Of a DNA stretch of 64,000 nt, positions 36,068 through 39,225 are shown in pieces. How positions within the stretch are numbered: the stretch's first letter is position 1; each line of letters begins with the position of its first letter. The DNA is taken from NCBI RefSeq assembly GCF_023913515.1, contig NZ_CP099391.1, forward strand, positions 2,976,001 through 3,040,000. The letters are read 5' to 3'. A program made the position numbers and the translations under genes. Under the pieces are notes generated by a model that ran no database searches, was not told the DNA's origin, and was given only the letters and a program-made list of their open reading frames with translations. Source of the DNA: Natronococcus sp. CG52. GTDB lineage: Archaea; Halobacteriota; Halobacteria; Halobacteriales; Natrialbaceae.

Positions 36068-36337
36068 GTGGTGTGTCGATCACCAGCGTCGTCGGCAGTG
36101 ATGTGTCAATCGCGGCGGTGCCGGATCGGTGGTGTGTCAATCGCGGCACCGCGTTGTGGTGTGTCGGTCGCCGACGACACTGGATCAGTGGTGTGTCGAT
36201 CGTGGGATCGCCGGTCGCGCGGTGTCGCCGTCAGCGGTAACCGATTAGTGGTGTGTCGATCGGTGGTGTGTCGATCGGTGGTGTGTCGATCGGTGGTGTG
36301 TCGATCGGTGGTGTGTCGATCGGTGGTGTGCTAATCG
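36068..36337. repeat. 15-bp tandem repeat array (GTGGTGTGTCGATCG)
   Basis: Six contiguous 15-bp units run from 36248 to 36337, the last diverged (GTGGTGTGCTAATCG). Five degenerate units lie before them at 36068, 36098, 36129, 36156 and 36188, spaced 27 to 32 nt, that is about twice the unit. The array ends five bases from the ftsZ2 stop, between the convergent ncsA and ftsZ2 genes. There are no spacers, so it is not CRISPR. The rest of the 35839-36342 gap shows no gene. Confidence 0.85.
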
Positions 36338-36342
36338 TCGGA

Positions 36343-37524
36343 TTACCGGATGACGTCGACGCCGTTCTGCCGCTCGAGTTCGTTCGTCCCGCCGTCGCTC
36401 TTCGCGCCGTATTGGCGCTGTTTGACGTTGTTGCTCGCGTCGAAGTCCGAGTCGTTCACTCCTTCGATGCTCTCACGGGACTTGTCGGCCTGTTTCTGCG
36501 TCGTCGGGCCGAGCACCTGGGCGCTCTGGACGCCCGTCATGATCGCCATGACGCGGACTTTGCCCTTGTAGTTCTCCTGAATACGGGCACCCCAGATGAC
36601 GTTCGCCGAGGCCTCGAGGCGCTCGGTGATGTTGTCGGCGATGCCCTCGGCCTCTTTCAGGGTGAGGTCGGGACCGCCGGTGATGTGAACGAGACCGCCG
36701 GAGGCACCGCGGTAGTCGACGTCCAGCAGCGGGTGGTTCATCGCGTCCTTGACGACCTCGTCGCTCTTGTTCTTGTCCTGGGTCTCGCCGACCAGCATCA
36801 CTGCGACACCGCCCTGGTTCATGATCGTGGACATGTCCGCGTAGTCCAGGTTGATCAGGGACGGCTGGGTGATCGTTTCAGAGATCCCCTTGACGGTCTC
36901 GGCGATGATCTGGTCCATCACCGAGAACGCCTTGCCGATCGGGAGGTTCGGGACGTAATCGAGCAGCCGGTTGTTGTCCAGCACGATGATGGAATCGGCC
37001 TGGTCGCGGAGTTTCTCGAGGCCTTCCTCGGCTTTCACCGTGCGGGCGCGCTCGACGTTGAACGGCGTCGAGACCATCCCGACGACGATCGCACCCTGCT
37101 CTTTAGCAATCTTCGAGACGACGGGGGCGGCACCCGTACCGGTGCCACCACCCATCCCTGCGGTCACGAACACGAGGTCCGCGTCTCCGAGGACCTCCTT
37201 GATCGTGCTCTGGGCCATCTCGGTCGCGCGCTCGCCCATCGACGGATCGCCGCCGGCGCCGAGACCGTTCGTGAGCGACTTGCCGACCAGGATCTTCGTG
37301 TCGGCCTCGATCATCTTCAGGTGCTGTTTGTCCGTGTTGATCGCAACGGTGTCAGCACCGTCGACGCCGATGTTGTACAGCCGATTGATCGTGTTGTTCC
37401 CGGCGCCGCCACAGCCGACGATGACGATCCGCGGTTCGCCGAACTCGTCGTCGTCCATGGATTCGTCCATCTCGCGGGCCTCTTCTTCGGCGTTCTCGAG
37501 TGCATCCTGAACGATATCCTGCAT
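36343..37524 (-). CDS. ftsZ2: Cell division tubulin FtsZ2
   Basis: A 393-residue archaeal FtsZ. The GTP-binding motif GGGTGTG lies at 125-131, with [21 protein letters not shown] before it and the T7 catalytic loop in LINLDYADM near 225-231. It has a long acidic N-terminus and a C-terminal tail ending GVDVIR. It polymerises at mid-cell; in haloarchaea FtsZ1 and FtsZ2 cooperate, FtsZ2 driving constriction. The ATG at 37524 (MQDIVQ) is 2 nt from the cdrS stop and is preferred over one 18 nt upstream that would overlap cdrS. The pairing with cdrS identifies it as FtsZ2 rather than FtsZ1. Confidence 0.93.
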
Positions 37525-37526
37525 CG

Positions 37527-37706
37527 TTACACCTTGGCCCAATTGCGTTTGCCAGTTTGCTCGGCTCGTCCGTCGGCCTGCTCGTTGATCATCTCACGAA
37601 CAGCCGAACGGATGGCCTCGCTGCGGTTCGGGAACTCACCCGAGTCGACCAGTTGTTCGACCTCCTCGATCTGCTGTTTCGGAATTCGCAGTGTCACACG
37701 CTCCAT
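37527..37706 (-). CDS. cdrS: CdrS-like ribbon-helix-helix regulator
   Basis: A 59-residue ribbon-helix-helix protein. [20 protein letters not shown] is the beta-strand and helix A, and [16 protein letters not shown] is helix B. In Halobacterium and Haloferax, CdrS (cell division regulator short) is encoded directly before ftsZ2 and controls it. Here the stop lies 2 nt before the ftsZ2 ATG. The ATG at 37706 is used; the open frame extends upstream over a structured leader. It probably binds DNA as a dimer or higher oligomer. Confidence 0.88.
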
Positions 37707-37725
37707 GATTGTATTCCCCGTTGGG

Positions 37726-37864
37726 GTAAGACGGTGTGCGCCCCTGTCAGACGCGCGGTGTCTTACACCGAAACCGCCCGACATCGGGCGGTTTCTGGCA
37801 GTTATCTGCCTGTGTAAGACGACCGTCTTACGCGACTAATAGCGAGACTGTCGTAGATATTAAA
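37726..37864 (-). promoter_or_regulatory. cdrS-ftsZ2 promoter and leader with four GTAAGAC boxes and a hairpin
   Basis: On the minus strand a TTTAATAT box A lies at about 37857-37864, so transcription should start near 37830. Two GTAAGAC boxes form an inverted pair with 4-nt spacer at 37814-37831, overlapping that start; two further boxes are at 37760-37766 (inside GGTGT-CTT-ACACC) and 37726-37732. A perfect 12-bp hairpin GAAACCGCCCGA/TCGGGCGGTTTC (37770-37795) lies in the leader. The spacing suits a repressor or self-regulation site for a ribbon-helix-helix protein such as CdrS or CdrL. Confidence 0.6.
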
Positions 37865-37904
37865 GCTTTCGCCCGGGACGAGCTTCTGTGTATTACAACA
37901 GTCC

Positions 37905-38462
37905 TTATTTAGGACGGGTGGTGTCCAGCACGTCCGCGGCAGGTGTCCGACGGCCGCAGCTCGGACAGAACGACCAGTCCGATCGAACCTCGTCGCCACA
38001 CTCGCAAAATAGCCGGTGGGACGCTTTCTCACCGCAGTTCGGGCAGTATACGTGCTCCGCGTCCACGTGTTCGCCACACTGTCCACAGCTGGTCTCACGC
38101 TCGGACGGACGGTGGCGGTCCTGCTCGGTGTCGGCTTCGGCAGCCGTGACTCGAGTCCCGGCCTGGTTCTCGTTCGGTACGTGTCCTCCTTCGAGCGAGA
38201 TCGAGACGTTCACGTCCTGCGGTTGGGGGGACGGCTGACGCTGTCCGACACGGTGATCGCCGAGTCGTTCCGTGAGCAGATCGTCGACACGCTCTCGGAC
38301 CAGATCGTCGATCGCGGTCTCGGCCGTCCGCTCCGGCTCGGACTGTCCCTCGTCTGCGAGGAAGGCTCGCAACGCCTCTCGCATGACCTCGCTTTTCGAG
38401 GCGTCGAGCTCCTCGAGTTGCGAGACGAGATCGTCGTCCGCCCGGAACGTGATCTTGCTCAT
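37905..38462 (-). CDS. cdrL: CdrL-like ribbon-helix-helix regulator with zinc ribbons
   Basis: A 185-residue protein. The N-terminal ribbon-helix-helix is MSKITFRADDDLVSQLEELD with SKSEVMREALRAFLADE. A variable linker follows, then two zinc ribbons at the C-terminus: CGQCGEHVDAEHVYCPNCG and CECGDEVRSDWSFCPSC. CdrL (cell division regulator long) lies upstream of cdrS-ftsZ2 in haloarchaea and is reported to regulate that operon. Its 3' end is about 200 nt before the cdrS ATG, with the cdrS promoter between, so it is probably a separate transcription unit. Confidence 0.85.
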   Translation of the reverse strand: MSKITFRADDDLVSQLEELDASKSEVMREALRAFLADEGQSEPERTAETAIDDLVRERVDDLLTERLGDHRVGQRQPSPQPQDVNVSISLEGGHVPNENQAGTRVTAAEADTEQDRHRPSERETSCGQCGEHVDAEHVYCPNCGEKASHRLFCECGDEVRSDWSFCPSCGRRTPAADVLDTTRPK

Positions 38463-38592: not shown

Positions 38593-38666
38593 CCGCCCTT
38601 AGCTCAGACTGGTAGAGCAGTCGACTGTAGATCGACTTGCCCCCCGTTCAAATCGGGGAGGGCGGA
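38593..38666 (+). tRNA. tRNA-Tyr (GUA)
   Basis: A complete cloverleaf of 74 nt: acceptor stem CCGCCCT/AGGGCGG with discriminator A, D arm GCTCAGACTGGTAGAGC, anticodon stem GTCGA/TCGAC with loop CTGTAGA reading anticodon GUA, variable region, and T arm with GTTCAAATC. No CCA is encoded. A TATG-containing AT-rich stretch lies just upstream. Its 3' end is imperfectly repeated at 39649-39671. Confidence 0.95.
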
Positions 38667-39225
38667 CTTCTCCTGCGAACGAACTACATTCGAGCGACGG
38701 CATTGGGGTCTGACCCATATGCGTCGAAAGTCGCCCGCGAATTGACCATATGGCCTGGTACACTCTCCACAAAGCGGGTTCGGGCTGACAAACGCAGGCC
38801 AGATGGTTAAAACCTGTTACCAATACTTCTTCGTAGTCACGATCGAGATAACCGATCCGAAAGATCAGACCTGAACCCACTCATCTGGGTCTCAGAGCCA
38901 CTTCCTGGCACGTGAGCGTAATACAACCGTCGTCGGTGCATTCAATCAACACACCCCTTCAACTGTTCTCTGACGGCGACGGTAACTGACGTTGCTTCTT
39001 TACGGTTTATGAACTGAAATAGCTCAGACCCACCCCTCCGATTTTTGGAGAATTGGTGTCGCACCAGGAGCACAGGTATCCAACGACCGCTTTCAGATTG
39101 CTTTAGGATTTCAGTTCGTTATCCAAAGTACCTACTTCCATTCTTGAGCTCGAGCTTGATTATGAGAAAAGGATTTACATAACAACCCGAGTGAGTGAAA
39201 CCGTGAGAAAAGCACTTTGAAGCAC

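Follow-up and report, generated by a model that had tools for sequence, protein, structure and literature searches.

GTAAGAC boxes in the haloarchaeal cdrS-ftsZ2 promoter and leader: a conserved candidate operator one base removed from the CdrS code

Introduction

Few regulators of archaeal division are known. Two of them, CdrS and CdrL, are encoded in the window (the whole 64-kb stretch of DNA analysed here), beside a promoter in which one short sequence, GTAAGAC, recurs on both strands. What do these repeats specify, and which protein reads them? The original prediction was that they could form the binding code of this division switch, with a hairpin in the leader as a second layer of control. 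We have followed the repeats through haloarchaeal and other archaeal genomes, and compared them with the sequences at published CdrS and CdrL binding sites.

Results

The boxes and their surroundings

The features of the region are as follows.

37905..38462, minus strand: cdrL, with a ribbon-helix-helix (RHH) domain, CdrL_M and a double zinc ribbon
37890..37896, minus strand: distal fifth box, degenerate GTAATAC (gene sense), beyond the TATA-like element and 65 bp upstream of box 1
37858..37864, minus strand: TATA-like element TTTAATA, with the predicted start near 37836
37825..37831, minus strand: box 1, GTAAGAC (gene sense), at about +5 from the predicted start
37814..37820, plus strand: box 2, GTCTTAC (gene sense), 11 bp past box 1
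37797..37810, minus strand: hairpin A, 5 bp, beside hairpin B
37770..37795, minus strand: hairpin B, 11 bp, loop AUGU
37760..37766, minus strand: box 3, GTAAGAC (gene sense), in the leader
37746..37752, minus strand: single CdrS-type box, GTCTGAC (gene sense), in the leader; GTCAGAC on the other strand
37726..37732, plus strand: box 4, GTCTTAC (gene sense), with the cdrS start codon 26 nt further on
37726..37831, minus strand: predicted leader fold, with a 10-bp helix between boxes 1 and 4, a 9-bp helix between boxes 2 and 3, and the hairpins inside
37527..37706, minus strand: cdrS, a 59-aa RHH protein (Pfam RHH_1, E 4.9e-8)
36343..37524, minus strand: ftsZ2, second gene of the regulated cdrS-ftsZ2 operon

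The boxes stand upstream of cdrS-ftsZ2 with cdrL adjoining, so that two RHH proteins are encoded beside them. Read in gene sense the order is TATA-like element, predicted start, boxes 1, 2, 3 and 4, and the cdrS ATG; the start is predicted from haloarchaeal promoter spacing, and across loci the TATA-like element begins 32-37 nt upstream of box 1. Boxes 1 and 2 form an inverted pair, GTAAGAC-n4-GTCTTAC (37814-37831). All four boxes were found where they had been predicted, as an inverted pair and two leader boxes, one of the latter lying, again as predicted, within GGTGT-CTT-ACACC (37757-37769). GTAAGAC is not rare overall, with 7 copies in the window against 4.1 expected, and the three copies other than the four boxes are scattered; for four copies in 106 bp, however, the number expected by calculation in such a stretch is about 0.007, and the haloarchaeal genome to which the window belongs (4.74 Mb) has a single copy of the exact inverted pair.

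Elsewhere in this neighbourhood a perfect tandem repeat (36248-36330, 5.5 copies of the 15-bp unit GTGGTGTGTCGATCG) lies just past the ftsZ2 stop codon, and a tRNA-Tyr gene (anticodon GTA, 38593-38667) lies on the opposite strand directly upstream of cdrL. At two other loci (L206 and L207, in genomes G046 and G044) an extra RHH-like ORF (MGRINVRVD...) begins upstream of cdrL, giving these lineages three RHH-type genes in a row.

Conservation among haloarchaea

The box pair is present at the same place in all of the 50 relatives first examined, the step varying from 9 to 12 bp. Pattern searches of 61 genomes found the exact GTAAGAC-n4-GTCTTAC in 48, one per genome and always upstream of cdrS, and a reversed control pattern of the pair had no match in these 61; genomes without the exact pair include some with spacers of 2, 3 or 5, some with degenerate pairs and some that are incomplete. 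An extended form of the pair has at least 120 matches in GTDB representative genomes. Eighty of these were inspected singly, and the archaeal ones lie 87-151 nt before the start of cdrS, a figure that covers every archaeal match with enough downstream sequence (for one, the stretch ends too soon to tell); the six bacterial matches among the 80 have no cdrS. Because the GTDB loci were selected on the pair itself, we take rates of conservation from 60 unselected unique haloarchaeal loci, in which the pair is kept in 54, box 4 in 53 and box 3 in 44. Of 158 pairs, 152 have a spacer of 4, corresponding to an 11-bp step. Of the 154 CdrL-bearing loci in a combined set of 164, 103 have an exact distal box (GTAAGAC or GTCTTAC), most often 52 or 65 bp upstream of box 1.

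The original prediction was to be given up if the boxes were confined to close relatives and bound by neither CdrL nor CdrS; on conservation it is borne out, the boxes being kept far beyond close relatives (54/60 unselected loci, 48/61 genomes). They look like a genuine regulatory switch conserved across haloarchaea. In the texts searched we found no mention of GTAAGAC in this setting; the code is new to that literature, and an earlier description may exist.

The CdrS code at other promoters

ChIP-seq of CdrS in Haloferax volcanii, a species other than the window's, yielded 18 sites and a symmetric motif that is printed as a figure only (PMC8406309). The ftsZ1, dacZ and psmB promoters are among the listed sites, and the cdrS-ftsZ2 promoter does not appear in Table 1 (PMC8406309). 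In the relative Haloferax denitrificans these three target promoters carry GTCnGAC, as a perfect pair at ftsZ1 (GTCAGACAGATGTCTGAC) and as a single exact box with a degenerate partner, paired at the 11-bp step, at both dacZ and psmB; the dacZ pair taken singly is not significant (166/2000 shuffles). When the published distances from motif to transcription start (-50 for ftsZ1, -47 for dacZ and -72 for psmB; PMC8406309) are laid on this placement of GTCnGAC, the ATG follows the start sites by 9, 4 and 4 nt and a TATA-like element precedes them by 25-28 nt, and such sensible positions provide an independent consistency check of the placement. Of 61 genomes searched, 22 have the exact pair GTCAGAC-n4-GTCTGAC, whose control pattern matched nowhere, and in 11 of the 22 loci fetched this pair stands in front of ftsZ1; most other haloarchaea read have related pairs before ftsZ1, imperfect in Halobacterium. 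At other loci (L303, L304, L307, L308, L310, L314, L320, L321 and L323) the same pair lies near various ORFs that are not ftsZ1, and these are possible further targets of CdrS.

Set against the GTCnGAC operator, the window's boxes share the 11-bp step and differ in their letters, each of the four having A instead of C at position 3. We found no pairs or arrays of GTCnGAC at the window's cdrS, only the single GTCAGAC at 37746-37752. A single leader box of this type, GTC[T/A]GAC in a GCG...CGC context, is kept at 42 loci, most of them in the window's family, and may be either a remnant or a live CdrS site.

The ancestral state

In the 160 nt upstream of 27 cdrS genes from outside the haloarchaea (10 families) there are 61 occurrences of GTCnGAC against 0.6 in shuffles, and the spacings of exact and one-mismatch boxes peak at 11, 22, 33 and 44 bp; GTAAGAC is absent from the same 160 nt of all 27. 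Methanogens keep GTCnGAC where haloarchaea have GTAAGAC, a difference of a single letter. A chance origin of the repeats is ruled out by the clustering of the boxes, the lack of control matches and this excess of GTCnGAC over shuffles. The strand residues R3, T5 and R7 of CdrS are alike in haloarchaea and non-haloarchaea, and CdrL has invariant K3, T5 and R7. In other RHH proteins these strand residues contact DNA, and we assume the same for CdrS and CdrL; the unchanged residues of CdrS, together with those of CdrL, are consistent with the boxes having acquired another reader and CdrS having stayed as it was. Outside Halobacteria, CdrL reportedly does not occur (PMC7439475).

Ancestrally, CdrS would have governed its own operon through GTCnGAC, and in the haloarchaeal lineage the boxes of that operon would have been recoded at position 3, from C to A. 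Recoding of GTCnGAC to GTAAGAC appears to be the simplest account of these patterns, its direction being taken from outgroups and not from a dated tree, and it suggests that a one-base change in a DNA code may have rewired control of archaeal division. Actinarchaeum, once considered as an outgroup, was dropped as it is Halocatena halophila and lies within Halobacteria; Halocatena marina has CdrL, which makes loss likely.

Haloarchaea without detectable CdrL

It has been stated that all sequenced Halobacteria encode CdrL (PMC7439475). We did not detect CdrL in G039, G047, G109 and G060 (each about 99% complete), in two Halocatena genomes or in HArc-gm2, and an RHH profile search covering all of these except G109 gave only weak matches to a CdrL-like RHH elsewhere in the genomes (best E 2.9e-4). 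At the sensitivity used, these genomes are exceptions to the general statement. No CdrL was detected at the haloarchaeal loci L199, L200, L201, L103, L111 and L114.

All of the genomes named above keep the pair and box 4. The pair is therefore not limited to CdrL-bearing genomes: of 10 loci that lack CdrL, 7 retain it. Box 3 behaves differently: it is the box most often missing where CdrL is missing, being kept in 1 of these 10 loci vs 118 of the 154 with CdrL, although the 10 stand for about seven lineages and include three loci from incomplete genomes. The persistence of the pair weakens CdrL as a sufficient explanation, and the genomes concerned provide natural test cases for the question of the reader.

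The leader as RNA

The leader (37707-37837) folds at -67.4 kcal/mol with a z-score of -6.8. The original prediction had placed a 12-bp hairpin at 37770-37795; the hairpin exists, with 11 bp and a 4-nt loop, and is one part of a larger predicted fold. Among 147 leaders, box 1 pairs with box 4 in the minimum free energy (MFE) fold of 137; box 3 is present in 110, and in 102 of these its pairing with box 2 accompanies the 1:4 pairing. The alternative, 1 with 2 and 3 with 4, is the MFE fold in just 4 of the 147. Inverted boxes pair in any case, and thus information comes only from the sequence that flanks them. For boxes 2 and 3 this flanking sequence pairs at a higher rate than do shuffles or slid registers, and changes placed on a tree include 5.8 compensatory double changes for each in-register pair vs 2.3 off register; the outer helix has just 2-3 per pair, and one flank association that should not pair shows clade effects. 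No Rfam family scored above its gathering threshold in the leader (only NsiR4 appeared, at 16.6 bits vs 40 required), and scans for bacterial-type promoters and terminators, which are not meant for archaea, gave nothing. Post-transcriptional control of the operon has been suggested in Halobacterium salinarum, although this leader is not named (PMC8303175). A control layer in the leader RNA is plausible on the modelled folds.

Discussion

Which protein reads the boxes?

An 11-bp step is expected of stacked RHH dimers, and the boxes show just such an arrangement, short sequences about one helical turn apart. We propose that each 7-bp box takes one dimer and that the inverted pair takes two, stacked a helical turn from each other. 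As the pair spans about +5 to +22, these dimers would hinder initiation or promoter escape, a sign of regulation that we infer. The reading of the boxes as an operator is well supported by these sequence comparisons. As to the reader, the sole reproducible ChIP site of CdrL in Hbt. salinarum is upstream of cdrS-ftsZ2; the binding was mapped at peak resolution in that one species, and the text gives no motif (PMC7439475). Nor did we find a CdrL motif in the later CdrS literature searched. The presence of the exact pair once per genome, in the window's genome and 48 of 61, matches a single CdrL site. CdrS targets differ from the boxes by one base and the promoter is not on the CdrS ChIP list, and the boxes therefore fit CdrL better; these two observations also lower CdrS from its place as the obvious reader. 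In haloarchaea CdrS would still use GTCnGAC elsewhere (ftsZ1, dacZ, psmB), and CdrL, encoded just upstream, would read the recoded boxes in most of these organisms. Of the original proposal, the CdrL-bound region and the RHH step stand, but the two proteins do not look interchangeable, as CdrS targets carry GTCnGAC. Our main reading is that the GTAAGAC boxes are the operator of cdrS-ftsZ2, recoded from an ancestral CdrS operator and now read mainly by CdrL, to which we give a probability of roughly 0.6; CdrL is probably the reader.

Several other readings deserve consideration. CdrS itself might read GTAAGAC as an autoregulatory operator, with an affinity lower than or altered from that for GTCnGAC, and CdrL might only modulate it. 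CdrS is encoded at every box-bearing locus, including those without CdrL, its ancestral operator lies at the same gene, and each GTAAGAC retains the GAC half of the CdrS box; moreover, ftsZ2 expression falls in Hbt. salinarum when cdrS is deleted (PMC7439475), so that CdrS could still act at this promoter. Yet the 18 Hfx. volcanii sites omit the promoter even though close Haloferax relatives have the pair, and the recoded A3 is fixed and not merely degenerate, suggesting specific reading by something else, and we regard this explanation as unlikely. That GTAAGAC joins one half identical to the CdrS box to one changed half could also point to a mixed complex, in which CdrS would take the GAC half and CdrL the GTA half, the more so as both are RHH proteins encoded together. 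We found no data on such a complex, the CdrS ChIP omits the site and the box persists without CdrL; the operator of the NikR homotetramer, GTATGA-N16-TCATAC, likewise joins GTA and GA halves, so that the asymmetry does not need two proteins. We consider a mixed complex highly improbable, and the same can be said of a regulator that is neither CdrS nor CdrL: the pair is indeed kept in genomes without detectable CdrL, but box and 11-bp geometry stand one base from the RHH code of CdrS, and this region is the only reproducible site of CdrL (PMC7439475).

Conservation of the boxes mainly as RNA, with the 1:4 and 2:3 pairings folding the leader and control exercised through translation or transcript stability, draws on the z-score, the frequency of both pairings, the covariation of the box 2 and box 3 flanks and the published signs of post-transcriptional control. 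However, the letters of the 7-mer are fixed where pairing alone would permit compensatory changes, inverted DNA boxes pair automatically, and the outer helix covaries weakly with visible clade effects. In addition, the predicted transcript does not include the distal box, a point in favour of its being recognised as DNA. As the main reason for conservation, RNA is thus very unlikely, but an RNA role may well coexist with a DNA operator. A combined account, in which the boxes do double duty as a DNA operator recoded by one base, with the operon passing from CdrS to CdrL, and as an RNA whose 1:4 and 2:3 fold adds control after initiation, is possible but, taken whole, we hold it only tentatively.

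Comparison with known systems

One close counterpart of the boxes is the CdrL site of Halobacterium salinarum (PMC7439475), which lies at the same operon with the regulator gene adjoining and is the single reproducible site; that site is a published peak, and the present reading of this genus covers three other Halobacterium genomes. CdrS of Haloferax volcanii (PMC8406309) is an RHH regulator of the same operon with a symmetric motif, and at ftsZ1 there are two 7-bp boxes 11 bp apart, as here; its code, however, is GTCnGAC (as inferred from three target promoters) and not GTAAGAC, and its sites are mostly upstream of promoters, whereas the GTAAGAC pair is at the start site. NikR is an RHH protein whose operator (PMC7055735) has letters similar to GTAAGAC, and CdrS and, weakly, the RHH domain of CdrL match NikR in the PDB by sequence; the NikR boxes are nonetheless far apart and bridged by a nickel-binding tetramer domain, which CdrS and CdrL lack. 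SegB of the Sulfolobales (PMC12284271) is an archaeal cell-cycle RHH protein with palindromic sites at its own operon, as here, but these sites (TCTAGA-S-TCTAGA) are distributed chromosome-wide and most are inside genes, unlike the GTAAGAC boxes. Seen against these systems, the boxes are probably an RHH operator of a known circuit, with a sister code one base away and a possible second role as RNA. This reading offers a concrete code for each of CdrS and CdrL, which a single base, at position 3, is predicted to tell apart. It also explains in testable terms how the ftsZ2 operon, once autoregulated, could have been recoded while the CdrS code still stands before ftsZ1.
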